Below, piece by piece: positions 15,476 through 55,157 of a DNA stretch of 64,000 nt. Under the pieces are notes generated by a model that saw nothing but the letters and a program-made list of their open reading frames with translations, had not been told where the DNA came from and did no database searches. Position numbers and translations under genes: made by a program. Source of the stretch: Sphingomonas sp. (GTDB lineage Bacteria; Pseudomonadota; Alphaproteobacteria; Sphingomonadales; Sphingomonadaceae); contig NZ_JAFKMA010000001.1 in assembly GCF_017304635.1 (NCBI RefSeq), forward strand, positions 1,178,001 to 1,242,000, in the 5' to 3' direction. How positions within the stretch are numbered: the stretch's first letter is position 1; every line of letters begins with the position of its first letter.

Positions 15476-15604
15476 GGTGCGCGCCCCTGCCCGCCCGACG
15501 CCCGACGATCAACCCCGCCGGTGACGGAGTTCGCTTGTAAACGCCGCCGTTCGGCGTAAAGCGCCGCGCCTTTGGGTCGTCTTTGGCCGAATGTAGGAAG
15601 AACG

Positions 15605-16117: not shown

Positions 16118-16125
16118 CGAGCCGT

Positions 16126-16199: not shown

Positions 16200-16246
16200 A
16201 TGGGTGGCGCCTTTACCTCCGCCCCCGCCTGCCCTAGCCGATTCCC

Positions 16247-18605: not shown

Positions 18606-20287
18606 GCCGCGTCGGCCTCGAGCGGCTTCGCATAGGCATAGCCTTGGCCGTAGGTGCACCCCAGCGCCGCCAGCGTCTGGCCGAGCTCGTTGGTCTCGAT
18701 CCCCTCCGCCGTCGTCTGCATGCCGAGCGCCTGGGCCAGGCTCAGGATGGCGCGGACGATCGCGATCTTGTCGCGATCAGCGAGCATGCCGGTCACGAAG
18801 CTGCGGTCGATCTTGAGCACGTCGATCGGCAGCTTCTGCAGGTAGGCGAGGTTCGAATAGCCGGTGCCGAAATCGTCCATCGCCAGCGTCGTGCCGAGCT
18901 GCTTCAGCGCCTGCATCGTGTCGGCGACGCGCGCCGGATCGGCGATCAGCGCGCTTTCGGTGAGTTCGAGCGTGAAGCGGCTGCCCGGCAGGCGGTGCGC
19001 CATCAGCGCGCGCTCTACCGCCGGCGCGATGTCGTCGCGGTGGAGCTGGATCGCCGACAGGTTGACCGCGAACTTGACCCCGCACCCGCCGCCCGCGCGC
19101 ACGTCCCACGCGCGCAGCGTCTTCGCCGCCTCGTCCAGCGCCCAGCGACCGAGCGGGACGATCAGCCCCGATTCCTCGGCGACCGGAATGAACTGGTTGG
19201 GCGAGATTTCCTCGCCGCTCTCATTGGCCCAGCGCGCCAGCGATTCGAACGCGACGACACGCCCCGACGACAGGTCGCAGATCGGCTGGTAGGTCAGCCG
19301 CAGCGCGCCGTTCTCGATCGCGCGGCGCAGCTCGGTCTCGATCCCGAATTGCGTGCGCGCCGCGTCGAACGCCTGGGTCTGGTACCATTCGGCATGGCCC
19401 GAACTCTTCGACCGCTTCACCGCGAACTGGGCGTGGCGAATCAGGTCCTCGGGATCGGCCAGGTCGTCGGTGCCGAACGCGATGCCGATCGCGCAATCGA
19501 CCCGGATCTCGAAGTCCGACATGCGGAACGGCGTCGCCAGCGCGCGTTCGATCCGGCGCGCGACCTGATCGGCCTCGGCCGGCCCGTCGTCGATCTTCAT
19601 CAGGATGCCGAATTCGTTGCCGCCGGTGCGCGCCAGCGTGTCGGTCGCCCGCAACGCCCCCTTCAGCCGCCGCGCGACGGTGATAAGCAGCTCGTCGCCC
19701 GCCAGACTGCCGAGGCAGGCATTGACGCGGCTGAACCGGCTGAGGTCGATGATGAGGACGGCGTGGCGGGTCGGATCGTCGGAGAGGTTTTCCTCGATCA
19801 GCTCGGCGAACCCCGTGCGGTTGGGCATGCCGGTCAGCGAATCGGTGACCATCTCGCGCCGAAGATTGCGTTCGGTCCGCAGTTCGCCGGTATAGTCGAC
19901 CAGGGTCACGAGCGCTTCGCCCGGCGCGGTGGTTCGTCGGGCCAGCGTGACCTGGAAGTATCGCCGGTCGACCGCTTCGCCGACTTCCCACGGGAATTGC
20001 TCGCGCTCGCTATCGCCGGTGACCAGCGCGACGATCCGCTTGCGCTGGTCGGCGACCAGCCGCGATGGCTCGCCCGGCGCGCCGAGCCCGGCGGCGCGGA
20101 ACGGCCGGTTGGCGGCGGTGATCGCGATATCGCCGTCGATCAGCTTGAGCAGCGCGACCGGCATCGGGAACATCTCGATCGCGCTGATCGCGTCCGACAC
20201 GTGGCGCGGGTGCGGGGCATCGTCCGCGGGCGCGATCTCGGCCAGCGGGGGCAGTTCGATGCGGGCAGGTCCAAGCGCCATCGCCAT
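18575..20287 (-). CDS. GGDEF-EAL protein, probable c-di-GMP phosphodiesterase
   Basis: 570 residues. Domains in order are an N-terminal PAS-like sensor (about 35-135), a GGDEF domain (about 140-300) and an EAL domain (about 315-565). The cyclase signature reads GGNEF (222-226), so diguanylate cyclase activity is doubtful. The phosphodiesterase side looks intact: FESLARW (ESL for EAL, Glu kept), DDFGTGYSNLAYL, KIDRSFV and AEGIETNEL. It has no membrane segment. It probably degrades c-di-GMP under control of the sensor domain. Its end overlaps the CCA gene by 31 nt. Confidence 0.92.
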   Translation of the reverse strand: MAMALGPARIELPPLAEIAPADDAPHPRHVSDAISAIEMFPMPVALLKLIDGDIAITAANRPFRAAGLGAPGEPSRLVADQRKRIVALVTGDSEREQFPWEVGEAVDRRYFQVTLARRTTAPGEALVTLVDYTGELRTERNLRREMVTDSLTGMPNRTGFAELIEENLSDDPTRHAVLIIDLSRFSRVNACLGSLAGDELLITVARRLKGALRATDTLARTGGNEFGILMKIDDGPAEADQVARRIERALATPFRMSDFEIRVDCAIGIAFGTDDLADPEDLIRHAQFAVKRSKSSGHAEWYQTQAFDAARTQFGIETELRRAIENGALRLTYQPICDLSSGRVVAFESLARWANESGEEISPNQFIPVAEESGLIVPLGRWALDEAAKTLRAWDVRAGGGCGVKFAVNLSAIQLHRDDIAPAVERALMAHRLPGSRFTLELTESALIADPARVADTMQALKQLGTTLAMDDFGTGYSNLAYLQKLPIDVLKIDRSFVTGMLADRDKIAIVRAILSLAQALGMQTTAEGIETNELGQTLAALGCTYGQGYAYAKPLEADAAYAFLMAANV

Positions 20288-20356
20288 TCTGGGTAGCGGA
20301 CACTGGTTAAGGCGAGATAAAGCGCGTTACCGGCGCAAACCGATTTTACCGTGATG

Positions 20357-22603
20357 TCAGAAGCGGTTGTCGCGCGGGAAACCATTCGGCGGCATGCGGC
20401 CGGCGGCACCGCGCGCGGTGCGCCACGGTTGCAGGTCCGCCTCCGTCCGCACCCGCCCGCTATCGCCGCCCATCGCCCAGCTCAGCCCGTCGGCGAAGCG
20501 GAACGTGATCGCATCGGACAGCCCGCCGTCGCGATAGCGTTGCAACTGCACCCCCTGCCCCTTCGCCAGTTCCGCGACCTCGGCCATCGGGAACACCAGC
20601 AGCTTGCGATTGTCGCCGATCGCCGCGACGTAGTCGTGTTCGGGACGGATCGGCTTGACCAGCTTGAGCCGGGCCCCGGCGCGCGGGTTGACCACGCTCT
20701 TGCCCTTGCGCGTCTCGGCAATGGCGTCGGCGGCCTTCAGGATGAACCCGCGCCCGTCCGATGCCGCGACCAGCAGCCGCTCCGCCTCGCTCGCGCGGAA
20801 CAGTGCGACGATCGGCACGTCGCCGTCCAGGTCGATCATCAGCCGCACCGGCTCGCCGAACCCGCGCCCGCCCGGCAGCTTGTCCGCCGCCAGCGTGTAG
20901 AACCGCCCGGTCTCCGCCGCGAGCAGCAGCTTGTCGGTGGTCTGTGCGTGGAACGCGAAGCGCGGGCCGTCGCCTTCCTTGAATTTCATCGCGTCGGCCG
21001 AGGCGAGTTCGACATGCCCCTTCATCGCGCGAATCCAGCCGCGCTGCGACAGGATGACGGTGATCGGCTCGCGCTCGATCATCGCTTCCAGCGGAATCTC
21101 GCGCGCCGGCGCCGCTTCCTCGATCGTCGTGCGCCGCTTGCCGAGCACGGTCTCGGGGCCGTAGCGGTCGCGGATCTTGCCCAGGTCGCGCTTCAGCCGC
21201 GTGCGCTGGCGGGCGTCGCTCGACAGCAGCAGCTCGAGCTCGCCTTTCTCCTTCTCCAGCCCGTCGCGCTCCCTGCGCAGCTCCATTTCCTCGAGCCGCC
21301 GCAACGACCGCAGCCGCATGTTCAGGATTGCCTCTGCCTGGCGATCGGTCAGGTCGAACTCGGCGATCATCACCGGCTTCGGCTCGTCCTCGGTACGGAT
21401 GATCTCGATCACGCGGTCGAGGTTGAGGTACGCGATGATGTAGCCCGCCAGCAGCTCCAGCCGGTCGGCGATCTTGTCGAGCCGGTGCTGCGACCGCCGC
21501 CGCAGCACGACGAACTGGTGATCGACCCACGCCTGCAACGCTTCGGTCAGGCTCATGACGCGCGGCGTGCGGTCCTTGTCGAGCACGTTGAGGTTGAGCG
21601 GCACCCGCGTTTCGAGGTCGGACAGCCGGAACAGGCTCTCCATCAGCGTGTCCGGATCGACCGTGCGGGTGCGCGGTTCGAGCACGATGCGGATGTCCTC
21701 CGCGCTTTCGTCGCGGACGTCGGCCAGGATCGGCAGTTTCTTGTCGTTGACCAAAGCGGCGATGTTCTCGATCAGTTTGCCCTTCGACACGCCGTACGGG
21801 ATTTCGCTGACCACCAGGTGCCAGCCGCCACCCTTTTCGGTCACGCGTTCGATCCGCGCGCGGGTGCGGAAACTCCCCCGGCCGGTGGCATAGGCTTCGG
21901 CGATCGCCGCCGGGCTGTCGACGATCACGCCGCCGGTCGGCAGATCGGGGCCCTTCACGTAATCGAGCACGTTGGCCTGGGCGTTGTCGATCAGCGCGAT
22001 CGCCGCGTCGAGCAGTTCGGCGGCGTTGTGCGGCGGAATGCTCGTCGCCATGCCGACCGCGATCCCCGCCGCGCCGTTCGCGAGCAGGTTGGGGAACGCG
22101 CCCGGCATCAGCTCGGGTTCCTGTTCCTCGCCGTTATAGGTCGGGCGGAAGCCGGTCGCGTCCTCGTCCAGCCCGTCCATCAGGTCGATCGCGACCTGCG
22201 TCAGCCGCGCCTCGGTGTAGCGATAGGCGGCGGCGTTATCGCCGTCGATATTGCCGAAATTGCCCTGCCCGTCGACGAGCGGATAGCGCAACGCGAAGTC
22301 CTGCGCGAGCCGCACCATCGCGTCATAGACCGACGCGTCGCCGTGCGGGTGGTACTTGCCGATCACGTCGCCGACCACGCGCGCCGACTTCTTGTACGCC
22401 CCCGCCGGGTCCATCCGCAGCAACCGCATCGCCCACAGCAGGCGACGGTGCACCGGCTTCAACCCATCGCGCACGTCGGGCAGCGACCGCGCGGTGATCG
22501 TCGACAGCGCATAGACGAGGTACCGCTCCGACAGCGCGCTGTCGAACGGCGCGTCGAGCACGCCCACCGGAGGATTGTCGGGAAGGTCGGTCGTGGAAGC
22601 CAT
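20357..22603 (-). CDS. parC: DNA topoisomerase IV subunit A
   Basis: 748 residues, standard for alphaproteobacterial ParC. The N-terminal [21 protein letters not shown], the quinolone region [20 protein letters not shown] and the active-site tyrosine in [10 protein letters not shown] are clear, followed by the tower and a C-terminal domain lacking a GyrA box. It decatenates chromosomes with ParE. The quinolone region reads GDAS...YD, with Ala where E. coli ParC has Ser80; this may simply be the normal alphaproteobacterial state. Confidence 0.96.
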
Positions 22604-27859: not shown

Positions 27860-27936
27860 GCGCCCGTAGTTCAACTGGATAGAGCACGAGCCTTCTAAGC
27901 TTGGAGTTGCAGGTTCGAGTCCTGCCGGGCGCGCCA
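27860..27936 (+). tRNA. tRNA-Arg (anticodon TCT)
   Basis: 77 bases with encoded CCA. The acceptor stem GCGCCCG/CGGGCGC pairs fully. The anticodon loop CTTCTAA gives TCT at 27894-27896. The T arm is GCAGG-TTCGAGT-CCTGC. The last 48 bases are repeated at 37211-37258, so this gene is the attachment site of the element that follows. Confidence 0.97.
27889..27936 (+). repeat. attL: 48-bp direct repeat in the tRNA-Arg 3' end
   Basis: The string from AGCCTTCTAAGC to GGGCGCGCCA is found again at 37211-37258. The two differ at one base (G here, A there, in the T loop). A duplicated tRNA 3' end is the normal scar of tyrosine integrase insertion. The copy here completes a functional tRNA. Confidence 0.93.
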
Positions 27937-35948: not shown

Positions 35949-37061
35949 TTATTCGCCCGAGCCCGACAGCTTTACCATGAACGCCTCGTACTTCGATAGT
36001 GCCTGTCGTTTCTCTTTGAGACGGTCGTACCGATCATAGATTTCGTCGAGCACTGCCGGCGCATGGTTGATGAGTACCTCGCATAGTTCGCGAGGAACCT
36101 TCAGCCGTGCCATGTTCGATCGGAACGTGCGACGGATGTCTCGTGTCGTGAAGCCAGATAGACCGGCTTCCTCCTGTACGGTGCGGATGAGCTTAACGAG
36201 CGAATGGCCGGTGATCGCCTTGTCCCCTTTGACGTTCGGGAAAAAGTAGGTGTCATTGCCTTTGCACTCAGCGAGCACAGCCTTAGCGAGCGGCAAGAGC
36301 GGTATCGCATGATCGCGGCCGTTCTTCGTGATCCGCTTGCCGTCTTCAAAGCCGGGTATAGTGAGCACGTTCCCTTCGGCCCATGATCGCTTGATAGCGG
36401 TCGTTTCGGAGCTCCGGGTGCCCCACAGTACCAGTAGACGGAATACGCGAGACTGAGGGCCATCTGCTGCCTTCCAGAGAGCTTTGAGTTCTGCATCTGA
36501 CAGCGTCCGGGTGCCCTTCGTGTCGGCGCCGGGTGCTTCGTAGCCTTCCATGGGGCTATGCACGACGTACCGGCGCGGTGGCCGGGTCGTCCAACGGAAG
36601 AACGCGCGAGCTGCTCGGAAGGCGTGAAGCCGAGCGGATGGCCCTTCGATGGCGTCGAGCGCTTCCTCGATCTCTTCAAACGTGATCGAGGCGAGCTGTT
36701 TGCTGCCTAAACCCGGAAAATGCTTATTGAACAGCAGGGTCAGGTGGTACTTGTGGGCCGTGTCCGGAAAGGTGGCAAGGTATTCCTCCTTCGCTTCCTT
36801 GAACGTCTTCCGCGGTGCGCGCTTGGTGTCCGGCTCGGCTAGAAGCCGCTTCGCTTCCTTTCGCGCGTCGGCGAGGGAAATGTCCGGGTATCTGCCGATC
36901 GACACGCGCTCCCGCTTCGTACCGCGAAGAACGATGAAGGTCTTGGATCGTAGCCCGCAACGGATGCCAAAGTTGGGCGTCTTGGTATCAAAGAACGTTT
37001 CGTATTTTTCCGAGCCGGTCAGGGCGCGGATGGCGATGTCGGTGAAAAGCATCTGCGCCAT
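35949..37061 (-). CDS. Tyrosine integrase (P4-like, arm-binding domain)
   Basis: 370 residues. N-terminal arm-binding domain (DUF4102-like: FTDIAIRALTGSEKYETFFD and RVSIGRYPDISLADARKEAKRL), then a core-binding domain and catalytic domain. Catalytic residues: R216 in LWGTRSSE, a lysine near 243, R310 in TTRDIRRTF, H333 and the tyrosine 342 or 345 in EIYDRYD. The usual box II histidine (HDLRR) is Arg307 here. It lies 150 nt inside the right repeat, as expected for a tRNA-targeting element. Confidence 0.92.
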   Translation of the reverse strand: MAQMLFTDIAIRALTGSEKYETFFDTKTPNFGIRCGLRSKTFIVLRGTKRERVSIGRYPDISLADARKEAKRLLAEPDTKRAPRKTFKEAKEEYLATFPDTAHKYHLTLLFNKHFPGLGSKQLASITFEEIEEALDAIEGPSARLHAFRAARAFFRWTTRPPRRYVVHSPMEGYEAPGADTKGTRTLSDAELKALWKAADGPQSRVFRLLVLWGTRSSETTAIKRSWAEGNVLTIPGFEDGKRITKNGRDHAIPLLPLAKAVLAECKGNDTYFFPNVKGDKAITGHSLVKLIRTVQEEAGLSGFTTRDIRRTFRSNMARLKVPRELCEVLINHAPAVLDEIYDRYDRLKEKRQALSKYEAFMVKLSGSGE

Positions 37062-37210: not shown

Positions 37211-37258
37211 AGCCTTCTAAGCTTGGAGTTGCAGGTTCGAATCCTGCCGGGCGCGCCA
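37211..37258 (+). repeat. attR: second copy of the tRNA-Arg 3' end
   Basis: 48-bp near-perfect copy of 27889-27936. The difference is one base, A for G in the T loop. The serine recombinase gene on the minus strand ends within it, so it is coding as well as a recombination scar. Confidence 0.93.
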
Positions 37259-38869
37259 TTCCCGTTCGATGTTGGGCACCGGCATACCGGGTGCCGCATC
37301 AAACCGTCCGACCGCATGTTCGAGCGCCTTGGTCGCACCGCGAATACGGATCTGCGTATCGCCGACCTCGATACGGTCGACGATCGCTCGCACGTAGTAT
37401 TGGCGCAGCGCAACGTTCTCGCCGCGCAGCCGCTCGCGCATCAGCCCGGCGAACGCTTCAAGCCTTGCCGGCGTGATCCGCCGCTCCGAGGTCGCGAGCT
37501 GCCGCTCCAGCATGACGATGTCAGTCTTCACCTCGTTGAGCTGCGCGGTCTGCTCGGCATATTTGCGCGAGAATCGATCGTCGTGCGCGGTCAGGTGCCC
37601 TTCCGCGACCAGGTCGAGCAGCCGATCGAGGCCGGCCTCGATCGCGGTCTGGCGTGCGCGAAGCTGCCGGAGCGCCTCACGCCGAGCGGCGGTCGCGTCA
37701 GCAGACAGGTCGAGCCAGCCTGACAGCAGTTCCTTGAGCCGATTGGGCTGCAGCACGCGCTCCTCAATCGCCGAAGTGACGATGTCGTCGAGTTTCGGCA
37801 TCGAGATGCGCCGACCCTTGCAGACGCTGAGGCCCGCACGCGCCCGGTTCGAGCAGGCATAATATTTGTAGCGGCCCGACTTGCCGGTCGAGGTCGTCAT
37901 GCCGCCGCCGCAGCCATCGTCGCCACACCCACAGCGGACGAGCCCGATCAGCAGGTTATCGGTCGTAGTTACTCGCGCTGGCCTGTTGAGCGCGCGACGA
38001 TCAACCAACCGCGCCTGGACGATCTCGAAGGTCTCGGCGTCGATGATCGGGGGCACGGGGATCGGCACCCATTCGCTCTCGGGCCGCACCTCGCCGGTCC
38101 TGGAGTCACGCTTGTTGTATAAGGCGACGCCGACATAGGCGATGTTGCGCAACAGCGCCTGCACGTTCGAGACGTGGAACTTCGCCCCCCGGTATTTGTA
38201 GCCGTGGGCGTTGAGCCACGCCGCCAGCCGGGTGATGCCGAGCGGCAGCGCGCCGGGCGGACCGTTGAGATAGAGGTCGAACACCTTGCGGACGATGAAC
38301 GCCTCGTCCTCGTCTATCTCGAGCTTGCGCTTGGATTTTCCCTCCCGGCGCTCGGCTTCGTAGGTGCGATAGCCTAAGGGCGGGGTTTGGCCATTCCAGA
38401 ATCCGAGCCGGGCATTGGCAAGCATCGCACGCTGGGTGTGCTTGGCATTTTCGACCGAATGATATTCGTCGAACAGCGCCAGCATGCCGATCGCCAATTC
38501 GGCAGCCGGGTCGTCGCCGAACCCTTGCGTGATCGAGACGATCGCCACCTTCGATCGCTTGAGCAGGTGGCGATACTGCATGAAGTGCAGCGCGTTGCGG
38601 AAAAGGCGCGACAGCGAGTGGATCAGGATTACGTCATACGGATGGTCCTCACTGGTCGCCCGCGCGATCATCTCCTGGAAGCGCGGCCGGTCGTCGTCGG
38701 TGGCGCTGGCGCCGGGCTCGACGACGGTATCGACCAGCACCGCGCCGCTCTGCTCGCACCATTGCTTGCCACGATCAATCTGGTCGGGAATCGATAGGTC
38801 GTTCTTCGCCTGGCGCGTGGTGGACACGCGGCCATAGATACATACCCGCGCGCCCACGTAGCTCGGCAT
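37217..38869 (-). CDS. Large serine recombinase
   Basis: 550 residues. Resolvase catalytic domain with Ser16 in YGRVSTTRQ and the Arg-bearing HSLSRLFRN; recombinase domain (LGYRTYEAERREG and VSNVQALLRNIAYVGVALYNKRD); zinc ribbon (GLVRCGCGDDGC, YYACSNRARAGLSVCKG); and a C-terminal coiled coil (ATAARREALRQLRARQTAIEAGLDR). It can integrate or excise DNA. The last 14 codons are read from the antisense of the tRNA repeat, ending ARQDSNLQLQA. ATGAAAGATG with a nearby GGGGAA marks the start. Confidence 0.92.
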   Translation of the reverse strand: MPSYVGARVCIYGRVSTTRQAKNDLSIPDQIDRGKQWCEQSGAVLVDTVVEPGASATDDDRPRFQEMIARATSEDHPYDVILIHSLSRLFRNALHFMQYRHLLKRSKVAIVSITQGFGDDPAAELAIGMLALFDEYHSVENAKHTQRAMLANARLGFWNGQTPPLGYRTYEAERREGKSKRKLEIDEDEAFIVRKVFDLYLNGPPGALPLGITRLAAWLNAHGYKYRGAKFHVSNVQALLRNIAYVGVALYNKRDSRTGEVRPESEWVPIPVPPIIDAETFEIVQARLVDRRALNRPARVTTTDNLLIGLVRCGCGDDGCGGGMTTSTGKSGRYKYYACSNRARAGLSVCKGRRISMPKLDDIVTSAIEERVLQPNRLKELLSGWLDLSADATAARREALRQLRARQTAIEAGLDRLLDLVAEGHLTAHDDRFSRKYAEQTAQLNEVKTDIVMLERQLATSERRITPARLEAFAGLMRERLRGENVALRQYYVRAIVDRIEVGDTQIRIRGATKALEHAVGRFDAAPGMPVPNIEREWRARQDSNLQLQA

Positions 38870-38901: not shown

Positions 38902-39246
38902 TCACGTCACCGATACGATCGCGACGTTTGCCTCCCCGAGGGTCTGTCCGTATTGCCCGAACAACGCGGCGTTCCGAAACAGACGCGAGGGTGAGGAGAC
39001 GAGGATTACGTCGTAGGGGTGGCCGTTGCCCGTCGCCCGCGCGATCATCTCGTGCAACTGCCGACGATCGGCGATGCTGGCGCCGGCGTCCATTACGGTA
39101 TCGACCAGAATCGCGCCGTTCTGCGCGCACCATTGCTTGCCGCGTTCGATCTGGTCGGCGACCGACACCCCGTTGTTCACCTGATCGGTCGCCGATACGC
39201 GGGCATATATGCACGCTCTCGTGTTGTGATAATTCTGCATTTTCAT
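38902..39246 (-). pseudogene. Truncated serine recombinase (catalytic domain only)
   Basis: 114 residues. It aligns along its length with the first 110 residues of the neighbouring full recombinase (ACIYARVSATDQ, IERGKQWCAQNGAILVDTV, PYDVILVSSPSRLFRN), then stops after VAIVSVT where the full protein continues. Ser and Arg of the active site are kept. It could be a decayed copy or a functional small resolvase-type regulator. It is 32 nt upstream of the full gene on the same strand. Confidence 0.75.
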
Positions 39247-43638: not shown

Positions 43639-45978
43639 TTACTGTCGCGTGATGCCGCCATCCCGGAACGCGTGCTGGATAGCCATATCGATGTCGTCTT
43701 GGCCGATCGCAGGCGTTTCCGCCTCGGCGGACACAGGTTCGGTTTGCTCGGCAAACAGATCCCGCAACCTGCGCTGCAGGTCGTCCGCGAACCCGGGCCT
43801 GAGTAACAGCGCCCGCTCGGTATCGGTGAGCATAGCCATGTCGATGTCATAGCTGGTGCCATCATAGGTCACGATGGCGCGGCTTTTCACGAGCCGTTTC
43901 CAGGCGGCTTCGCGATCAATCCGTTCACGCTCCACCGCAGCCGCTCGCGCCAGTTCACGATCGCTGGTCGCCCCGATGGTCTCGGCAGCCTGGGTAATCG
44001 CCGGCACCGCGTCGGGCTGCGACGGCGAGGCGACCTCGGGCCGGCGTTCGACGCTCTCCTCCCTGGCAGGAACAGGCGGTGCCGTATGGTCGCGGATCAT
44101 CCGCATGGCAGCCGATTCCGATCTCGCTTCGGCCCTGCCCATTTTCGCCGCGTAGAGACGCGTCACGATGCGCCGGCCGTCCGCCGATCGGGGATCGATT
44201 GCCGCCACGATCGTGCGAAGGCGATCCCGCACATCGGATCGCACCGCCGGTATCCGGTTGTCGGCATGCCGTAGTTGCCCAACGATCACCTCCAACCGGC
44301 GGCCAAGTGCGGTTCCTGCCGCAGCCAGACGTGTTTGACCATAGGTCGTCACGCCCAGAAGCGACACGCGGATATCGTCGCGCGCCCTTGCGCGCTCGAT
44401 CCGCCGCGAAGCGTCGGCGAGCCGGGATGCGCCATCGGCCCTAACATGATCGATGTCGTCAACGACCGAACGCAGTCGTGTATCGGCTTGGTGTCCCTGG
44501 CTCTGGATCGCCGAGCCACCGCCCGCGACAACCGTGGCGACGGATATCCGGCCGAAGCGATCGCCGATGTCGCGACGTAGACCGAGCCGGGCCTGGTGGC
44601 CGTGTTGTCGCACCTGATCGATGCCTTCGCGCATGGTATTGAGGCGCCGCGCGATCAGCACGCCGATGTCGCCGACACCACCATCCTCCGCCCACACCCC
44701 GACCCGGTGCGCCATCACCTCAACCTTCCGCCGCACCGCCGTCCGCACGCGATCGATGTCGCCCGGCAATTCGACGATACGCTCCGCCATACCGGTCAGT
44801 GCGACAGCAAGCCGCGGCCGCATATCGTCGATGCCGCTCCCCTCCGACCATATGGCGGTAGCGCGCCCCATCGTCTCGACCTTGCGGATGGTCTTGATCC
44901 GTGCCGCCTCCACGCGCGCTGCTCCATCGACCGCCGCATCGCGCAGATTCGCCACGATACCGGCGAGTGCTTCGAGTCTGCCCTGCCGCCGGGTCATCGC
45001 TTCGAGCCGGCGCCGCGTCCAGGTCGCCTGCTGCCCGACTTTGCCTTGCTCGGGCGGCAGCATATTGCGGGCCTTGTTACTCAAGTGGGTGTAGCGCTTG
45101 TTGATACCGGCCGCGTGCAACGTGGCGTTGATCGCACGCACCACCGCCAACCGCCGAGCGCGGATGCCGTCGGGCGTGTTGATGTCGTTCTGCTTTCCCG
45201 TCGCAAACTCCCATTCATACGGGGCCACACGTCGGGATTGTCGCAGCGAATAGACGATGTGGCAGTGGAAGTTGCGCTGGTCGCCCGACGCGTCGGGCAG
45301 GTGAATGCCGACCGAATACGCCATTCCGCGTGCCTCGAACCAGCGGCAGATCCGTCGCACCGCGCGGCGGCGCTGCCGCGCGGTCAATTCGGCGGGCAGC
45401 GCGATCACCTCAACGCAATAGACGTTGGCATTGGCGCGGTCGTGCTTTTCGAGCGCTTCCGACGCGCGGTAATGCGCGGCAAGCTCGTTCCTGTCCTCTG
45501 CAATGTTCGACCACCAGCCGCGCTCGCCGCCCTCCAGCGCATCCTCGCGAACGCCATACAACGCGGCGCGTTCGGCCTCGCCGGAGCGCCAGCGTCGGCC
45601 CTTGCGCGACGCAAACCCGCGGGCTGTGAACGCATAGTGGATGGAATACAGCCGGTCAGGGCCTCGGCTGTCGCTGAGCCCGATCGTGCCAGCGAGCATC
45701 GCTTGCACCTGACGATGGTAGAGCCGACGCGGAGTAGACCCGCGATAGCGCGGCCTGTCGGGCTGCGCGACCCGCACCCGGATCCGCCGCCGCCGTGCGA
45801 CGTCGGCCGCGCGATCGTCACGGCGCTTTTTGTCGAGTTGGTCGCGGGTCTTGGCGCGCTCATCGGCCCGCTCGACCGCTTTGCGCCGGCTGGCGAAGTT
45901 GCGCGCGCTGCGCTCGGCGGCGATGGCCTGCGCCACCCCCTCCGATCGTTGTTTCAGCGCGGCGTAGCCGACCTCCAT
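43639..45978 (-). CDS. MobA/MobL-type relaxase
   Basis: 779 residues. Basic N-terminal region, relaxase core at about 105-260 with ANVYCVEVIALPAELTARQRRRAVRRI and the metal-binding HLPDASGDQRNFHCHIVYSLRQS (HUH-type). A long helical C-terminal region of about 500 residues rich in R, E and A follows, with coiled-coil-like repeats. Relaxases nick oriT and lead the strand into the recipient. It starts next to a palindromic region (45998-46168), the likely oriT. Confidence 0.8.
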   Translation of the reverse strand: MEVGYAALKQRSEGVAQAIAAERSARNFASRRKAVERADERAKTRDQLDKKRRDDRAADVARRRRIRVRVAQPDRPRYRGSTPRRLYHRQVQAMLAGTIGLSDSRGPDRLYSIHYAFTARGFASRKGRRWRSGEAERAALYGVREDALEGGERGWWSNIAEDRNELAAHYRASEALEKHDRANANVYCVEVIALPAELTARQRRRAVRRICRWFEARGMAYSVGIHLPDASGDQRNFHCHIVYSLRQSRRVAPYEWEFATGKQNDINTPDGIRARRLAVVRAINATLHAAGINKRYTHLSNKARNMLPPEQGKVGQQATWTRRRLEAMTRRQGRLEALAGIVANLRDAAVDGAARVEAARIKTIRKVETMGRATAIWSEGSGIDDMRPRLAVALTGMAERIVELPGDIDRVRTAVRRKVEVMAHRVGVWAEDGGVGDIGVLIARRLNTMREGIDQVRQHGHQARLGLRRDIGDRFGRISVATVVAGGGSAIQSQGHQADTRLRSVVDDIDHVRADGASRLADASRRIERARARDDIRVSLLGVTTYGQTRLAAAGTALGRRLEVIVGQLRHADNRIPAVRSDVRDRLRTIVAAIDPRSADGRRIVTRLYAAKMGRAEARSESAAMRMIRDHTAPPVPAREESVERRPEVASPSQPDAVPAITQAAETIGATSDRELARAAAVERERIDREAAWKRLVKSRAIVTYDGTSYDIDMAMLTDTERALLLRPGFADDLQRRLRDLFAEQTEPVSAEAETPAIGQDDIDMAIQHAFRDGGITRQ

Positions 45979-48629: not shown

Positions 48630-50228
48630 TCAGGCGAAGGCCTCACTCAATCGAACGCGACCATTTTTGAATGCCTGGCGCACCAGCGCCTCGAAGAAAT
48701 GGATGTTGTCTATTTCGCGATAGCCCATCGTCTCCGACGCTTTGGAGCCCTTCGGGCCTTCCACAATGAACGAACCGTCGGCCGTCCTGACCGTCACGTC
48801 ACCCCAGCCGAACTCCACTCGTTCGCTGCTGAACATCTTGCGCTGCGTGAGGACCACGGTTTCGTTCCTGACGACCATCTTGCCGAATGTGAGCTCGCCG
48901 CCAGCGCCGAGCGCGGCCATCATCTCGTTCATGAGGCGGAAGCCGACGCCCTGCCATAACCTTGGCACGAAGGCCTCGAAGATCGCGCCGTTCCTGAATT
49001 CGGCTGTCGTTGTGGCAACCCCGTCGTTCCAAGCGATCAAATAATCTGTCCCGGTCGGAACGCCGTTGACGGACTTTCTGATAGCGCCCCAGCGCACGCC
49101 TCGGATCGCAGATAGCCTGGTGCGCCTACCTCGCCACTCTACGCCATCCCGATCGATCGAGAGGCGGGTCTTGCTGAACGTTCCAACATCGGCAGCATAG
49201 GCCAGCTCCGCATCCTCCTGCGCGGCTTGCGCTGACAGATTGTCGAGGGCCTGCGCGTCTTCGGCGATCTTGGACGCAACGCGTGGCAATGCCGAGAAAC
49301 TACTACCTACCAGGACGGACACCTGCTGAGATTCTTCCAGCAGGCTATGGTCGTTGTACAGGTCAATCGAGAGGCTACGGACGGTGAACGCTAGCTTCTC
49401 GCTTTCCTCGTCACGCTGACCACGCAGTGTCGCGCTTATCTGGACCGGGTGCGTCAGTTCGTCCCAGGTCACGAGCAGCTTTTTAAGCGCGTCGATGATT
49501 GGCGGCAGCGCATCAGGTCGCGTCGCCGCCAGCTCGCGCGCCTTCTCAACTAAGCGTTCCGCGCCTGCGATCTCGCGCGCCAAGAACGACTGCGACCTCA
49601 CCGCGTAATCATCGATCACTTCATGAAGGAAACGAGGAAAGCGCTGTTCATCGGCGACCTTATCAACCAACGTGAACATCGCCTCGGCCATTTCCACCGT
49701 CGGCACGCGCTCGAATGTCGCCATGACCGCTCGTCGCCAAGCCTGCCGGCGATCACGCAGCGATTCCGCTGCCACGTCCATGGACGTGACCATTGGGAAA
49801 CCGGCAATCTCGCGGTCCTCATTCACCTCGCGGATTACCCGCTCGACATCGACTTGATCGGCGGCACTGGTCAGCGCGTCCAGGAAGTCGCGGAGCTCAA
49901 CGACCGTCTGTGCGGTCCAACCCGACGAGGCGGCAACCAAGGCGTTGGCCATGGCTAGCCCGCCCAGCGGCAATTCCGACAGTTGAGATACCGTTGATGA
50001 AGCAGCCTGCTCAGCAACCTTTGGCGATGTCCCGGGGAACCAACTAAGCTCTGCTTCCAGCCGGCGTCGCGGGTTTGTGAGGATGGCCTGTGCCTGCTGA
50101 CATAGGTCTGAATCTGCGATCAGCGACCTTTCCTCGGCCGCCTCCATGATACGCCCACGATCGTCTCGGGTCGTCACGCCAAGGATGGCGAATGGATTCG
50201 TGGGCTGCTTTTCAGGATCACTGGACAC
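48630..50228 (-). CDS. J-like protein without HPD motif (last gene of chaperone operon)
   Basis: 532 residues from GTG 50228, overlapping the preceding gene by 11 nt. The N-terminal 66 residues resemble a J-domain: NPFAILGV opens helix I, then RGRIMEAAEERSL and CQQAQAILTNPRRRLEAELSWFPG give helices II and III. The HPD loop needed to stimulate Hsp70 is not there; the loop reads IADSD. The centre is helical. The C-terminal third is beta-rich (KTRLSIDRDGVEWRGRRTRL and RVEFGWGDVTVRTADGSFIV), perhaps PH-like. The J-like reading is by inference. Confidence 0.6.
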   Translation of the reverse strand: MSSDPEKQPTNPFAILGVTTRDDRGRIMEAAEERSLIADSDLCQQAQAILTNPRRRLEAELSWFPGTSPKVAEQAASSTVSQLSELPLGGLAMANALVAASSGWTAQTVVELRDFLDALTSAADQVDVERVIREVNEDREIAGFPMVTSMDVAAESLRDRRQAWRRAVMATFERVPTVEMAEAMFTLVDKVADEQRFPRFLHEVIDDYAVRSQSFLAREIAGAERLVEKARELAATRPDALPPIIDALKKLLVTWDELTHPVQISATLRGQRDEESEKLAFTVRSLSIDLYNDHSLLEESQQVSVLVGSSFSALPRVASKIAEDAQALDNLSAQAAQEDAELAYAADVGTFSKTRLSIDRDGVEWRGRRTRLSAIRGVRWGAIRKSVNGVPTGTDYLIAWNDGVATTTAEFRNGAIFEAFVPRLWQGVGFRLMNEMMAALGAGGELTFGKMVVRNETVVLTQRKMFSSERVEFGWGDVTVRTADGSFIVEGPKGSKASETMGYREIDNIHFFEALVRQAFKNGRVRLSEAFA

Positions 50229-50952
50229 GGGCGCGGCCCTCGGTTTCCAATTGATACCGCTTCGCCTCCACCTGCGAGGTCGCCGTTGGACGATCACTCG
50301 CCAGAATGGATCGATTGGAGCAGCGGCTGTTATAGTCGCTCACGGCGTCGTTGAACCCATCGACGTTCCGATTGAATTTGTCGGTGTCGCTGTATTGCAG
50401 TCCGTCGATCTCGGTCTTCTGCGCGGCAATACGGATGTCTTCGGCCAGGCAGTAGCGGATCTCTGCCAAGCCAAGGGAGGCATAGCCCGGCGTAGGCTTT
50501 GATTCCGCCCCATCGTCCTCAGAGGCGGCGGCCTCGCCCGTCGCTGTCCCGTCGCTGCCAGTCGATGTGTCTACGGCGTCACCAATCGTCATGTTGTCGG
50601 TCGACGTGCCGCTGGAGCCGGCAGTCGTATCATAGGCGGTCGATTGATCGCTTGGTGCGACATACGTGCTGCTGCTGTCACTGACGGCATGGACACCGCC
50701 CCAGATGCAAGCCTTTATCGCTAGTAGGATTCCGATTCCTAGCACCCAGCCGCCAATCTTTTTGACGCCGGCAGGGATTGCGCCGCCATCTTTATGAACG
50801 GGCGCTGTCGGTGCTGTCGCTGTCGTTCCTGCTCGTGGAGGCGCCGGTTGCGGTGCGGCCGATGCTATCCGATTAGCAGCGGCGATCGCTTCATCGACGT
50901 CCGTGGCAAGCCCAGCCAGACCCTCAAAACCTATATCTTTCGGCGTGACCAT
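50218..50952 (-). CDS. Single-pass membrane protein of the chaperone operon
   Basis: 244 residues. An N-terminal cytoplasmic part precedes one transmembrane helix (GWVLGIGILLAIKACIWGGV, about 67-87), then a Ser/Thr-rich spacer and a C-terminal domain with paired cysteines (EIRYCLAEDIRIAAQKTEIDG and DYNSRCSNRS). The C-terminal pattern is shared by a family of bacterial membrane proteins I have seen beside AAA+/Hsp70 genes, but I cannot name it. It starts 2 nt after the AAA+ stop. Confidence 0.65.
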   Translation of the reverse strand: MVTPKDIGFEGLAGLATDVDEAIAAANRIASAAPQPAPPRAGTTATAPTAPVHKDGGAIPAGVKKIGGWVLGIGILLAIKACIWGGVHAVSDSSSTYVAPSDQSTAYDTTAGSSGTSTDNMTIGDAVDTSTGSDGTATGEAAASEDDGAESKPTPGYASLGLAEIRYCLAEDIRIAAQKTEIDGLQYSDTDKFNRNVDGFNDAVSDYNSRCSNRSILASDRPTATSQVEAKRYQLETEGRARVQ

Positions 50953-50954
50953 GG

Positions 50955-52325
50955 TCAGAAACCGATCCGCCGCTGCTCGTCGCTATTGCGGGAGGGACTC
51001 TTGGCGAGGGCGCTCGCTATCTCGTCCGGACCGATCCGTTCCTTCTTGCCGCGAGCCGTAAGCCGCGCGGCCTCGCGAACAACGAACGACACATCGGATA
51101 GCGGCCGGCCGGCAAGCGCCGCCGCCAAGCCAGCCAAGTCGGGCACGTCGTTGGGAATCTCCGACAGGAGCGAGCTTAACAGCGCGGCGACCTCATCTCG
51201 GCCGGCGTGATCGACGTGGATTACATGGTCAAAGCGGCCACGTCGCAGGATGGCCGGATCGATGGCATCGACCTGATTGGTCATGCCGATGACCAGCACC
51301 CGATTTTTCGCAGCCTCCGGAATGCGCCGGAGAAATTCGGCGACCTCCTCTACGTGATGCTGTTGCGATCCGGTGTCGCGGCTCGCAAGAAAAGCATCCA
51401 TCTCGTCAATGACGATAACCGCCGGTGCTGCTTTCGTTGCCTCGGCGAAGACCTGCGCGACCTTGCGCGAAGTTTCGTGGATATATGGGCTGGCGACGCT
51501 CGATGCCTCGATGTGGAACGACGGCCAGCCAAGATGCTCTATCAGTCGCTCAACGGCGAACGTCTTGCCACAACCAGTCGGACCCTCGAGGACGATCCCA
51601 CCGGGAAAGCCGATGCCCAGCGATGCGTAGCGCTCCTCATCCGCGACAATGTCGATAACATGCTCGTTGAAGAAGTCGGCGAGAGCTGGGCGGCCGGGCA
51701 ATTCGAACGGCCCGATAGCCGCCGAACCGACGTTGGCACGGATATCCGCGGCCTTCTTTTTCTGCTTGCCACCCCGGACCGTCGATTTGAGCTCCAGACC
51801 CGCGGCGATGACGATCGCCTCTAAATCGTCGACATCGAACTTGGGCAAGATCTGCTCAAGAGCAACCACATCGTCTGCGCGCACTTCAATGCCCCCGGTC
51901 AGGAACAGGCCCAGCACTTCGGCCTTGTCGCGTGATTGAAGCGATGGGTCGGAATATGGCAGCAGCAGCTTCCCCGCCTCGTCGTATATCGCGCCCTGGA
52001 CGGTCTTGTCCGTGCGGCGCAATGCGGTCGCGAACGCTAGGGCCTGATCAACCGTCGTCGGGCGAGGCAGATGCCCCACGATATCGAGCGTGCCGTCGGT
52101 GACCATGACTCGGTATTCGCCGCCAGCGAAGGACAGAACGTCGAGATCTGGCAACGCCGCAGTGCCGACTGCAGGAACCTTTGCGAACTCGGCGGCCATG
52201 AGAAGCGCTCGCCTGCGACTCTTGGTCGCATGGATCCAGAACATTGGATCTACGGCGCGCACGAGCCGTCCAAGCTCTTCACCGTTGGGCAGCACCGTGC
52301 CTTGAGGAAATGGCGATGCCGGCAT
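50955..52325 (-). CDS. AAA+ ATPase, CDC48/FtsH-like
   Basis: 456 residues from ATG 52325, which overlaps the Hsp70 stop as TGATG. The AAA+ module shows Walker A EGPTGCGKTF (248-255), Walker B VIVIDEMDAF (303-310) and a second region of homology (GMTNQVDAIDPAILRRGRFD, 347-366) with arginine fingers. The N-terminal 200 residues are an unknown domain (LRRTDKTVQGAIYDEAGK). It should form a hexamer that unfolds or remodels substrates. Partner of the Hsp70-like gene. Confidence 0.88.
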   Translation of the reverse strand: MPASPFPQGTVLPNGEELGRLVRAVDPMFWIHATKSRRRALLMAAEFAKVPAVGTAALPDLDVLSFAGGEYRVMVTDGTLDIVGHLPRPTTVDQALAFATALRRTDKTVQGAIYDEAGKLLLPYSDPSLQSRDKAEVLGLFLTGGIEVRADDVVALEQILPKFDVDDLEAIVIAAGLELKSTVRGGKQKKKAADIRANVGSAAIGPFELPGRPALADFFNEHVIDIVADEERYASLGIGFPGGIVLEGPTGCGKTFAVERLIEHLGWPSFHIEASSVASPYIHETSRKVAQVFAEATKAAPAVIVIDEMDAFLASRDTGSQQHHVEEVAEFLRRIPEAAKNRVLVIGMTNQVDAIDPAILRRGRFDHVIHVDHAGRDEVAALLSSLLSEIPNDVPDLAGLAAALAGRPLSDVSFVVREAARLTARGKKERIGPDEIASALAKSPSRNSDEQRRIGF

Positions 52326-54802
52326 CAACCCCTCATGATGTTGGTCATGGCGAGCATCTCCTCCTCGCCACCTCGCGTAAAGCGAAGGTCGTCAAGGTGG
52401 ATCAGGATATCACGGAGCGAGCCCAGGTCTGTCTGGGCCAATGCGGCGCGCCCTTGCTGTATCAGCGCGGCGTAGCGATTTTGATCCATGAATTGCTCCG
52501 GGCTTCGCGAGAGCCAATGGAAGCGTTCGACGACGAATTCATCCGATCGCCATAGCGCCGCGATGTTCTTCGACCGAAGTTCTGCAAGGTGGGTTTCGAA
52601 ATCGCTGGCGCCGGCGTCGATCGAATGTTGCGCCGTTCGCACAAGGGCATCGAACGCCGCTGCCTCTTCGGGCAACGCGAATTCCCGCCCCCAGCCATCG
52701 AAGCTCGAAACTATCCCGTCGAGATCGAGTTGCCGGATGACTTTCAAATGGTCTTTGCGAACATTTGAGATGTCGCGGCGGGCGGCTCGTATCTCATCAA
52801 GGGCATGCTTCGTCTCTTCGGGCTCCGCCCGATCGACGTCCAGCGATGACGCCTTCTCGATCCGATCCATGATCGCCTCCACACGCGGATCATCGATATG
52901 CTTGGAGAACTCGTCCAGCCGGGACATGGTCGATTGGGCCTCGACAGCCACAAGGCCAGCGGCTTGGGCGTAATCGAGCTGGGCGTCCTGGCGGGCGTAA
53001 TAATTATGGCCGCTGGTAAACGAACCGCCGATCTCGGGAACTGAAACGTCAAGTCGGATCGTGCCGCCGTCTGTGATTTCATACTCGCAGCGGATCTCCG
53101 ATCCGATCGAGATCATGCCCTCATCGAAATCCGATCCGGACACCCGGAAGGTGCCGATGGGCATATTGTCCTCGACGGGTTCGCGGATGTCACCTTCCCA
53201 CAGCTTGAAGTTGAGTGCGCCCGGACTCCCGGCTCGAAGGGCCTCGCCTGATCTGAACGTGACGACGCCCTTTTTCGGAAGTGGGTCGCCCGCGCGAACG
53301 AGTGGCTCCAGGCCTTTGGCGCCGCCGCGCCCTTCGAGCACCTCGATGCTAATGGTGTGCGATGCAGGGATCGCGTCGATCGAGGCTGCCGTCCTGCTGA
53401 TGATGATGCGATCGTTTGCGATCCCGATCGGCCCGCCGCCCGCATCGAACACGAAAACCCGGAAGGCATTCTCGCCAGGTTTCGCAAGCGGCAGGTCGAT
53501 CGTGGCGCCGTCCTTGAGTTCTTTGCGGCCTGAAGACCAACCGGTGTCGAGGCTATCGACTTGAAACTCGCCGTTTGCGGTGCCGACCTTCTTGGCGACG
53601 ATCCGCGCCGATGCGTCGGGCGTTCGCGCGACATACGCAAATTCAAGGCCCGTGGAGGACAAAGAGCTCCGCGCCGCCTTGCGGCCACGGCTCTGGGTCG
53701 ACCAGTCGATCGACTCCGCGAAGATAGCGGCGCCTTCGGCGACCGCCGTCATCGGATTCACGTCGGTGGAAGCGGCGATCCCGAGCTCGAACGCCACCCT
53801 ATCGCGCAGCGGTTTGTATTGGGTAGGGCCGCCGACGAACACGACGCGATCGACGTCGTGGGCGCTGATCCCGGCCTGATCGAGGGACGCCCTTGCTGCC
53901 TTAATCGCTTGCTCGAGGATGGGGTCGATCAGTCGATCGAGTTGTGAGCGGTCGATTGGGATATCCAAATAGATTTCTTCATCTGCATTATCGCGCACAC
54001 CGATTTCGGTTTCGGACAATGCGATTACCGCTTCGTCGCTACGAGAGAGCTCGATCTTGGCCCGCTCGGCGGCCCAGGTCGCGAGTCGAGTCAGCGATCT
54101 GAAGCGCTTGTCGGCAACGAAATCGTCGCTGAGATCAAAGGTATCGACCAGCCAAGGCTTGACCACCTCATTCATGAGCGCCCGATCGATTTCGCGGCCG
54201 CCACACATCTCGACGCCACCGTGCGCTAGCAGGCTCACGCGACCCTTCATGCTCTGGGCGATCGCGATGTCCAGCGTGCCGCCCCCTAGGTCGAACACCA
54301 AGAACGTGCCGTCGCGGTTGCGCTGACGCATGACGCTCATGACCGCAGCGACCGGCTCCTGCATCAGCGCCACGCGACCGATACCAGCCGACTCCGCTGC
54401 CGCGAGCGTCGCGTCCTTCTGCATCTGGTTGAAGGCCGCCGGCACGGTGATGACGGTTCCGGTATCGCCATCACGCCGCATGGTCTCGGGGAGATAGCCA
54501 AACACCGTCCGCAGCACCTCGGCCGAGCATTCCTCGGGCGTCATGACCTTGTCGACTGCCGGCAGCTGGATGGGGGTATTCGTCCCCATCATGCGCTTGA
54601 AGAGGGTTGCGGCGTTATCAGGATTTCGCGCCGCATTTGTATAAGCCCGCGAGCCGACGAATTTGTTGCCTCGGCGGTCGATGAAGATCGCTGACGGCGT
54701 CACGTCGTGCTGTTCCGGACTCTTGTAGAGCGCGACATTCTCTCCATCGTAACTCGCGATGGCGCTGTTCGTCGTGCCGAGGTCGATACCGACATATTCC
54801 AC
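52325..54802 (-). CDS. Divergent Hsp70 family protein with inserted domain
   Basis: 825 residues from GTG 54802. Nucleotide-binding domain with GIDLGTTNSAIA (5-16), VFDLGGGTLDIA (169-180) and VFVGGPTQYKPLRDRV (321-335). A beta-rich insert of about 100 residues (roughly 385-480) separates it from an SBD-beta like part (VLEGRGGAKGLEPLVRAGDP, EDNMPIGTFRVSG, about 488-590). A helical C-terminus of about 230 residues ends it, far from the usual lid. The linker and peptide-groove region differ from DnaK, so a special client is likely. Confidence 0.85.
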   Translation of the reverse strand: MEYVGIDLGTTNSAIASYDGENVALYKSPEQHDVTPSAIFIDRRGNKFVGSRAYTNAARNPDNAATLFKRMMGTNTPIQLPAVDKVMTPEECSAEVLRTVFGYLPETMRRDGDTGTVITVPAAFNQMQKDATLAAAESAGIGRVALMQEPVAAVMSVMRQRNRDGTFLVFDLGGGTLDIAIAQSMKGRVSLLAHGGVEMCGGREIDRALMNEVVKPWLVDTFDLSDDFVADKRFRSLTRLATWAAERAKIELSRSDEAVIALSETEIGVRDNADEEIYLDIPIDRSQLDRLIDPILEQAIKAARASLDQAGISAHDVDRVVFVGGPTQYKPLRDRVAFELGIAASTDVNPMTAVAEGAAIFAESIDWSTQSRGRKAARSSLSSTGLEFAYVARTPDASARIVAKKVGTANGEFQVDSLDTGWSSGRKELKDGATIDLPLAKPGENAFRVFVFDAGGGPIGIANDRIIISRTAASIDAIPASHTISIEVLEGRGGAKGLEPLVRAGDPLPKKGVVTFRSGEALRAGSPGALNFKLWEGDIREPVEDNMPIGTFRVSGSDFDEGMISIGSEIRCEYEITDGGTIRLDVSVPEIGGSFTSGHNYYARQDAQLDYAQAAGLVAVEAQSTMSRLDEFSKHIDDPRVEAIMDRIEKASSLDVDRAEPEETKHALDEIRAARRDISNVRKDHLKVIRQLDLDGIVSSFDGWGREFALPEEAAAFDALVRTAQHSIDAGASDFETHLAELRSKNIAALWRSDEFVVERFHWLSRSPEQFMDQNRYAALIQQGRAALAQTDLGSLRDILIHLDDLRFTRGGEEEMLAMTNIMRG

Positions 54803-54806
54803 TGGC

Positions 54807-55157
54807 TTAATTCCTGAGCATCATGGTGCCGGTGCGACGGACGCCATTGGGTCCCATCACAATCGGCTCCATCATCTGATCGACGTAGAGCGTGTCTTCG
54901 GGACCGAAGTCCGCTGCGTTTAGTGCGGTAGCCGCCATGCCGGTATCGTAAGCCTGACCGTCCAACACGACGAGCTTCAGGCCCAACGGTGCCAAGCTAT
55001 CATCCAGCTTGCGCTGAAAATAGCGGACCTGATTGGATTGTCGCCCAGCAGCCCTGATATCGCGCGCGTCTATCGATCGCTGGAACATCCGGCACAGCCG
55101 CCAGCTCTCGACCGCGAGATCGATAAGCAGATCCTCAGCGCTAGCCGAATCGTCCAT
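54807..55157 (-). CDS. Small protein with GrpE-like layout (first gene of chaperone operon)
   Basis: 116 residues from ATG 55157 (GGGGG 6 nt upstream). N-terminal half is helical (SAEDLLIDLAVESWRLCRMF). C-terminal half, about 56 residues from GLKLVVLDGQAYDTG to TGTMMLRN, has the length and strand order of the GrpE beta domain, with an aromatic-D-x motif at the GrpE LDP position. Sequence identity looks low, so this is a layout likeness only. It begins the operon, and Hsp70 starts 4 nt after its stop. GrpE proteins eject ADP from Hsp70. Confidence 0.5.
   Translation of the reverse strand: MDDSASAEDLLIDLAVESWRLCRMFQRSIDARDIRAAGRQSNQVRYFQRKLDDSLAPLGLKLVVLDGQAYDTGMAATALNAADFGPEDTLYVDQMMEPIVMGPNGVRRTGTMMLRN

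Follow-up and report, generated by a model that had tools for sequence, protein, structure and literature searches.

A Mobile Operon with a Private Hsp70 Cycle and a Cdc48-like ATPase: A Predicted Membrane-Tethered Protein-Remodeling System

The DnaK–DnaJ–GrpE–ClpB network joins an Hsp70, a nucleotide-exchange factor, a J partner, and an AAA+ disaggregase, and Hsp70 cycles of this kind are normally shared housekeeping resources. A five-gene operon in a 64,000-nucleotide stretch of the Sphingomonas sp. contig NZ_JAFKMA010000001.1 (the whole stretch is called the window) shows the same reaction logic with a complete private cycle. It encodes a small GrpE-fold protein (S), an Hsp70, an AAA+ ATPase, a single-pass membrane protein (TM), and a J-like protein (J). 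The operon is read here as a dedicated membrane-tethered protein-remodeling machine carried on mobile elements, most likely for defense against phages or other elements, a reading to which we give a probability of a little under one half (about 0.47).

Several described systems share parts of this composition. Zorya has an envelope-anchored, peptidoglycan-binding membrane component that feeds cytoplasmic partners, and in IetAS the protease IetS is adjacent to IetA. As reported, the GAP1-N2 GTPase conflict systems include neighborhoods that encode their own HSP70, GrpE, and J-domain protein, for which a role in biological conflict is proposed (PMC7159879); the PAM motor comprises mtHsp70, Tim44, Pam18, the HPD-less Pam16, and Mge1 acting at the membrane (PMC12953747); and the CnuD and CnuCD components of CoCoNuT are Hsp70-like proteins, of which CnuD has degenerate Walker-A-like motifs and occurs alongside McrBC-type proteins (PMC11090510). 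No description of the five-gene operon was found in the literature, mainly open-access, and the words Hsp70, DnaK, DnaJ, GrpE, and chaperone are absent from the main text of the DefensePredictor paper (PMC13092281).

Composition of the Five-Gene Unit

An earlier note on this DNA had described five tightly packed minus-strand genes for a GrpE-like small protein, a divergent 825-residue Hsp70, a CDC48/FtsH-type AAA+ ATPase, a one-pass membrane protein, and a J-like protein without HPD, and had matched them to no named system. All five open reading frames (ORFs) are present at 48630-55157 (Table 1), the identifications stand, that of the small protein at the level of the fold, and the five proteins as a system have no match in Pfam, NCBIfam, or PADLOC 2023. 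The genome's own DnaK, DnaJ, and GrpE are encoded elsewhere, apart from the operon. The start ATG of the AAA+ gene overlaps the Hsp70 stop, and upstream of the S start at 55157 the reading frame stays open to a TTG at 55181. A promoter and terminator scan gave no signal exceeding that of shuffled sequence.

The nucleotide-binding domain of the Hsp70 (residues 1-363) has a strong match to PF00012 (4e-55 over residues 4-363). The residues D7, T10, T11, K69, E149, D171, and T176, which we take to be catalytic, are identical in 14 of 14 aligned rows (13 operon Hsp70s and the genome's own DnaK); the ATPase site is intact in all 13 operon proteins, as it is in the DnaK–DnaJ–GrpE machine. In the alignment, about 100 extra residues occupy the site of DnaK's short interdomain linker, ahead of the substrate-binding beta domain, and the C terminus is longer than that of DnaK. 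The protein shares 44-86% identity with 12 other operon Hsp70s, compared with 28% for the genome's own DnaK. Identity to the window copy is out of step with taxonomy (61% on a Shewanella plasmid, 56% in Methylobacterium).

The AlphaFold model of S (pLDDT 92.3) consists of two helices and a beta head, and its ten best Foldseek matches in the Protein Data Bank (PDB) are all GrpE or GrpEL1 (E 0.0075-0.33, none below 0.001). Pfam, NCBIfam, and PADLOC contain no match to S, and the kinship is remote, because a sequence-profile search of the PDB did not recover GrpE. S is 33-89% identical in 13 other loci and is a putative nucleotide-exchange factor for the adjacent Hsp70; it corresponds, in fold only, to the GrpE-type factor of the DnaK–DnaJ–GrpE machine.

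The AAA+ protein matches PF00004 (1.7e-30), and its closest solved relatives are VCP-like, NVL, AFG2, and Cdc48 proteins, with profile E values down to 1e-65. It consists of one ring with its own N-terminal region and a conserved GF near the C terminus. Walker A K255, Walker B D308/E309, N351, and R362/R365 are identical in 13 of 13 proteins (numbering counts from the TTG at 52328). A Y-I-H triplet, aligned with a VCP-like ATPase and presumably pore loop 1, has an aromatic first residue throughout (Y in 12 of 13, F in one) and an invariant His (13/13). The Walker A and B motifs, arginine fingers, and aromatic pore loop of the Cdc48/VCP class are thus all present, in a single ring.

TM has a single hydrophobic segment at residues 66-82, with a mean Kyte–Doolittle (KD) value of 1.96 over 17 residues. 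Across 19 TM proteins, the best such mean ranges from 1.35 to 2.81 and is weakest in E. coli and Serratia. The N terminus is predicted to be cytoplasmic and the C terminus periplasmic. A short N-terminal motif, G[FV]xG[LI], is found in all 19 distinct nonfused TM proteins and in none of four proteins in which J and TM are fused. The C-terminal domain has two invariant cysteines in the alignment. At locus L016, a PG_binding_1 (peptidoglycan-binding) domain follows it (Pfam 1.5e-15); the L017 and L019 proteins are annotated as peptidoglycan-binding, and a similar tail can be seen by eye in L032. Three loci (L016, L017, and L018) encode paralogous membrane proteins that share the N-terminal motif but differ in their C-terminal parts, as though motif-bearing membrane proteins could connect the cytoplasmic machine to different sensors.

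J consists of J-like helices (residues 10-59), a long helical domain (67-340), and a C-terminal beta-helix-beta-helix region (342-520). It has no Pfam match and is 25-69% identical in 11 other loci. In the AlphaFold model (pLDDT 91.3), the first four predicted helices are laid out, by eye, as in a J domain. The HPD of the J domain in the DnaK–DnaJ–GrpE machine is absent: at the aligned position, assigned by a global profile alignment with a low score (probability 0.2%), the window copy has D-x-D, with D37 identical in 12 of 12 proteins and the third position D or E in 11 and N in one. The C-terminal region is taken to be PH-like, a name prompted by its strand-helix pattern and by the best Foldseek match of whole J, a DH-PH protein whose score is not significant (E 0.003).

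The fusions point to how J and TM may be connected. In all four, the J profile ends at 339-345 of 547 and the TM profile begins at 54-68 of 288, and all four are without both the PH-like region of J and the N-terminal motif of TM. Because both are missing exactly where J and TM are fused, the two would normally dock, which suggests that the C terminus of J is a membrane-docking device that binds the TM motif. In one further locus, L029, a C terminus with a hydrophobic segment (KD 2.16 over 17 residues) takes the place of the PH-like region.

Conservation is lowest in TM (mean column identity 24% versus 49-62% for the other four proteins), and the different C-terminal parts of its relatives would also suit a guard-type abortive system. 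The Hsp70 and AAA+ proteins would then keep TM, or another membrane partner, inactive until infection diverted the chaperones and the released TM damaged the membrane. Toxin–antitoxin–chaperone systems, in which SecB-like chaperones hold toxins in check, follow this logic. Reportedly, chaperone-gated defense occurs in CmdTAC (PMC9519451) and host DnaJ acts in bNACHT25 sensing (PMC12169576). However, a protein with a peptidoglycan-binding domain resembles a sensor or anchor and not a pore former, and fusion to J makes release unlikely. A guard of this type is regarded as improbable.

Distribution, Carriers, and Genomic Context

The earlier note had proposed asking how often the five genes co-occur. 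Loci were sought with the AAA+ protein as bait, through plasmid searches, through a search of E. coli DNA with the Buttiauxella Hsp70–AAA+ stretch, and through genome searches with the J profile. Together these map 27 distinct J-bearing loci, a count that does not treat the near-copies L017 (of L016) and L044 (of L008) separately and leaves out further Sinorhizobium and Aminobacter records. All five genes are complete in 17 of the 27, including loci from alpha-, beta-, and gammaproteobacteria, and the recurrence means that the arrangement is not due to chance. The order S–Hsp70–AAA–TM–J on one strand is kept in 13 of the 17 complete loci; J and TM are swapped in L019 and L032, and J is inverted in L010 and L012. 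Homologues scattered singly are ruled out, as Hsp70 accompanies J in 25 of the 27 loci, the exceptions being L036, an E. coli copy cut at an insertion sequence (IS), and L212, a 3.4-kb contig. Presence of the AAA+ gene is by construction in the nine loci found with the AAA+ bait (L005-L013). With J as the sole bait, 13 genomes are positive and eight carry all five genes; the others comprise one copy cut by a contig end, two copies of a three-gene variant, one J with Hsp70, and one 3.4-kb contig.

The three-gene variant, in four loci (L020, L030, L034, and L222), consists of a J–TM fusion, S, and Hsp70, and no AAA+ relative was found in the fetched flanks, although the L030 contig is just 5.6 kb. 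It is carried by Sinorhizobium and Aminobacter plasmids and by two genomes of the window's family, and the L020 Hsp70 is interrupted by an ISNCY transposase. In L018, on a Polaromonas plasmid, the four other genes lie together and a TM-type protein annotated with an SH3 domain is divergent just upstream. Truncated loci are L005, where the contig ends, and L036. L223 has J and Hsp70, and L035 a partial J match with Hsp70. A Synergistaceae contig (L014) has S, Hsp70, and AAA+ genes at its end and stops before the place of J.

The unit is sporadic at every rank sampled. Among the genomes sampled, the J profile is positive in 7/295 from the genus, 4/199 from the family, 2/385 from the class, and 3/398 from the phylum, with the window's own genome included in each sample, and DNA resembling the Buttiauxella Hsp70–AAA+ stretch occurs in 2 of 5426 E. 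coli, in one of them complete. With J homologues in so few genomes of the genus, the unit is accessory and not conserved in all sphingomonads. A housekeeping complex is ruled out by this sporadic distribution and by the separate dnaK, dnaJ, and grpE genes. The carriers include a block with a large serine recombinase (in the window), Tn7-like cargo, plasmids of different types, and a chromosomal island in E. coli. The earlier note's view of a self-contained remodeling machine holds as to the unit, given that the five genes travel together across classes.

A phage-borne system is not supported, as 50,697 phage records contain no match to S. Of 557 viral-contig Hsp70 loci, 80 were retained; one of these is a full operon whose layout and flanking ORF sizes resemble those of the Serratia copy, a second combines S, Hsp70, and AAA+ genes with other partners, and 78 match the nucleotide-binding domain only. 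On a viral-labeled contig (L043, 5352-14569), relatives of S, Hsp70, and AAA+ are found with J and TM replaced by a 747-residue protein with coiled-coil-type Pfam matches and by unknown proteins of 403 and 424 residues. The Tn7-like cargo of Shewanella and Aeromonas plasmids (L016, 13631-17453) and genome G279 (L031, 13965-17121) have the same further genes past the operon, encoding a second GFSGL/GFSDL-type membrane protein, a 217-residue protein, and other small proteins. A Haliscomenobacter plasmid (L021, 5617-11427) carries a distant Hsp70 and AAA+ pair, then a TerB-family protein, directly adjoining BREX genes; this pair may be another branch of the operon theme.

We take the window operon to lie in an accessory stretch from about 37.2 to about 59.2 kb, the right end being set by G+C alone; the operon block has about 60% G+C, below most of its surroundings (65-70%). 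A second, separate 9.3-kb element with a tyrosine integrase precedes this stretch and is bounded by a tRNA-Arg and a copy of that gene's 3' end, within which the serine recombinase gene ends. The start of the recombinase gene and the DNA just upstream hold a direct repeat (Table 1).

Table 1. Features of the window discussed in the text
Feature	Position	Strand	Remarks
S (small GrpE-fold protein, 116 residues)	54807-55157	minus	ATG at 55157
Hsp70 (825 residues)	52325-54802	minus	GTG start
AAA+ ATPase (456 residues from ATG)	50955-52325	minus	ATG is the second codon of a TTG-start ORF (TTG at 52328)
Y-I-H of AAA+ (aromatic-hydrophobic-His)	51477-51485	minus	pore-loop-1 position
TM (one-pass membrane protein, 244 residues)	50218-50952	minus	
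GFAGL-type motif of TM	50917-50931	minus	here GFEGL, residues 8-12
J (J-like protein)	48630-50228	minus	GTG start, 11-nt overlap with TM stop, read from the DNA
D-x-D of J	50106-50114	minus	where true J domains have HPD
Large serine recombinase	37217-38869		PF00239/PF07508; first gene of accessory stretch
Direct repeat, 146 nt	38697-38842 / 39068-39213		76% identical, 371 nt apart
MobQ-type relaxase	43639-45978		Pfam, NCBIfam; within accessory stretch
AAA/OLD-type ATPase, 833 residues	55366-57867	divergent from operon	weak TOPRIM match; AriA/Old/GajA models 2e-15 to 6e-12
Second element, 9.3 kb	27.9-37.26 kb		precedes accessory stretch
Tyrosine integrase of second element	35949-37061		
tRNA-Arg 3' end	27889-27936		
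Copy of tRNA-Arg 3' end	37211-37258		47/48 bases

The earlier note had treated the relaxase and OLD-like surroundings as a hint to the role. The genes are indeed nearby, but a search of other operon loci found no homologue of the OLD-like protein or of two further window neighbors, of 394 and 512 residues (the relaxase was outside that search). These three are rejected as members of the system, and the surroundings carry little weight. The relaxase is the kind of neighbor that a helper of the carrier element would have, acting in transfer, maintenance, or surface exclusion, with a membrane location serving DNA or protein transfer. Several copies reside on plasmids or Tn7-like cargo, which also fits; the differences among the carriers and the lack of conservation of the three flanking proteins argue against such a helper, and it is considered very improbable.

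Defense Neighborhoods and a Proposed Mechanism

The preferred reading, a remodeling machine used in defense, draws on where single copies are placed. A strong defense neighbor was defined as a PADLOC match of 1e-40 or better or an annotation of such a gene, and flanks were surveyed at 20 loci other than the window. Seven have strong defense neighbors. On the Polaromonas plasmid pPNAP01 (L018, 436-25638), the operon is flanked on one side by ZorA/ZorB and on the other by BREX genes and GajA/GajB (PADLOC E 4e-277 and 3e-237). In the chromosomal island of E. coli HeN100 (L033), where the operon is intact at 14630-21413, RADAR RdrB and a DptF remnant are nearby. ZacC (Azaca) is found near L029, BilB and BilD near L012, and Type IIG genes near L224 and near the three-gene L020. 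The seventh, L007, has candidate PDC-M30/M41 matches, with PDC-M41B and PDC-M30B being one protein. Defense is ranked first as a matter of judgment, because of copies placed in the Zorya–Gabija–BREX cluster, beside RADAR, and beside Bil.

A number of observations weigh against a defensive machine of this kind. Thirteen of the 20 loci are without a strong match: none was recognized at 11 (L008, L009, L010, L013, L016, L019, L031, L032, L034, L220, and L222), and two have weak or generic matches (a UvrD helicase at L006 and candidate PDC-S26 at L011). L016 and L019 were placed among the 11 from plasmid annotation only, and some strong matches (e.g., SngC) were not assigned to a locus. Among the seven, L007 matches candidate models only. 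As a control, ten random 17-kb chromosomal stretches were scanned; PDC-S08 and ShosA reached 1e-40 or better there and are counted, by assumption, as two stretches, so that 7 of 20 loci versus 2 of 10 stretches is not significant (P=0.34); by protein, the comparison is 5 of 82 versus 2 of 131 (P=0.08). Enrichment is therefore not established. No nuclease, protease, or other killing enzyme was recognized in the conserved unit. The sequence kinship of J with J domains is weak: against the genome's own J domains, the J profile scores 16.2 versus a maximum of 12.0 in 50 column shuffles, over the first 16-24 columns and with a probability of 2.7%. No J-domain structure appears among the 50 Foldseek matches listed for J, bar one P58(IPK) chain, which probably matched over its repeat region. 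Finally, the L029 TM keeps its motif though its J is without the PH-like region, which weakens the case for docking. The earlier note had considered a defense or element-maintenance role likely; defense remains plausible, with defense genes near 7 of 20 loci, but the control lends it no significance.

The recognizable enzymatic parts are chaperones, which raises the alternative of a mobile module for stress tolerance (proteostasis). Under heat or envelope stress, the additional Hsp70/GrpE/AAA+ set would rescue proteins that are aggregated or associated with the membrane. Transmissible stress-tolerance islands have a comparable logic. In Methylobacterium (L010, 1232-3214) and Microvirga (L012, 1903-4737), the operon is preceded by an opposite-strand gene for an FtsH-like AAA-M41 protease, and the Shewanella and Aeromonas copies run on into hypothetical and membrane-protein genes with no defense gene annotated. 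On the other hand, no Hsp20, ClpB/ClpK, or thioredoxin is found among the neighbors scanned with Pfam, DNA-defense systems lie near the operon at some loci, and no HPD-bearing J is encoded. Such a module is judged unlikely, although it is the most probable of the alternatives.

For the defensive machine preferred here, a mechanism can be proposed. TM would cross the inner membrane: the part that contains the cysteines, and sometimes binds peptidoglycan, would lie in the periplasm, and the short N-terminal motif would face the cytoplasm and recruit J, probably via the PH-like C-terminal region. J would act as a scaffold holding Hsp70; because HPD is absent, J should not stimulate the ATPase as an ordinary J protein does, a situation comparable to that of mitochondrial Pam16. 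Hsp70 would bind client segments, S would reset its nucleotide, and the Cdc48-like ring would thread and unfold the client. In this way, the machine could respond to an event at the envelope, or to a foreign membrane-located protein, by capture followed by unfolding or disassembly. Since no killing enzyme was recognized in the conserved unit, the unfolding machine itself would be the effector.

A more specific form of this proposal, which is doubtful but worth stating, is immunity by protein unfolding. A membrane- and peptidoglycan-anchored sensor would pass foreign inner-membrane proteins to the private Hsp70/GrpE cycle and the Cdc48-like ring, to be dismantled without a nuclease, protease, or suicide enzyme, and the fused three-gene variant would be the minimal form of the machine. 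If the system is defensive, phage infection could be stopped by unfolding, not by cutting or suicide. Control of a membrane Hsp70 by an HPD-less J-like protein is known to us from mitochondrial Pam16 only, and the operon would offer a compact bacterial model of a J-like protein of this kind governing a membrane-bound Hsp70.

Comparison with Known Systems

Each named system compared with the operon has at least one defining feature that the operon lacks. The nearest published idea is that of the GAP1-N2 systems (Kaur et al. 2020, PMC7159879), as the operon also has a private Hsp70, GrpE, and J-like protein. As described there, these systems are mostly actinobacterial or firmicute and GTPase-centered, with the DnaJ domain typically fused to an FNIII-repeat protein. 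The operon, in contrast, has no GTPase in the unit and has a Cdc48-like AAA+ protein, a membrane protein, and an HPD-less J. With Pfam, no GTPase was found among the five proteins, 20 neighbors at other loci, 10 window neighbors, or the L020 methylase. In the E. coli L033 copy, a YfjP-family GTPase remnant lies just upstream of the operon and another GTPase further away.

In the case of PAM (PMC12953747), the features that may be shared are a membrane-tethered Hsp70, a GrpE-type factor, and an HPD-less J-like protein, for which the operon encodes candidate parts. This likeness would concern working mode and not descent, and the tether on the operon side is suggested by the J–TM fusion. Unlike PAM, the operon has no Pam18-type HPD-bearing J and no translocase, and it adds a Cdc48-like ring. 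CoCoNuT CnuD is likewise reported as an Hsp70 homologue in a predicted defense operon (PMC11090510). The operon Hsp70 differs in having intact ATPase residues, and no McrB-type GTPase or McrC match was found among the five proteins with Pfam or PADLOC.

The best PADLOC model for the AAA+ protein is IetA (2e-22, over the AAA+ core only), yet the protein scores 73 bits against an NCBIfam IetA cutoff of 510, and for the five proteins Pfam gives no protease match and PADLOC no match to an IetS model. Zorya resembles the operon in its envelope-anchored, peptidoglycan-binding membrane part; no ZorA or ZorB match was found among the five proteins with PADLOC, and Zorya is a mere neighbor of the operon, in Polaromonas. 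The DnaK–DnaJ–GrpE–ClpB network differs in that its AAA+ partner is ClpB and not of the Cdc48 class, in the lack of the membrane partner, and in a universal housekeeping distribution where that of the operon is sporadic. In composition, we regard the system as new in kind; its parts come from known superfamilies, and the function proposed for it is a prediction. An accessory system that combines a complete private Hsp70 cycle with a Cdc48-class unfoldase, a J-like scaffold without HPD, and a membrane protein linked to the envelope, and that mobile elements have spread across proteobacteria, would represent a new design.

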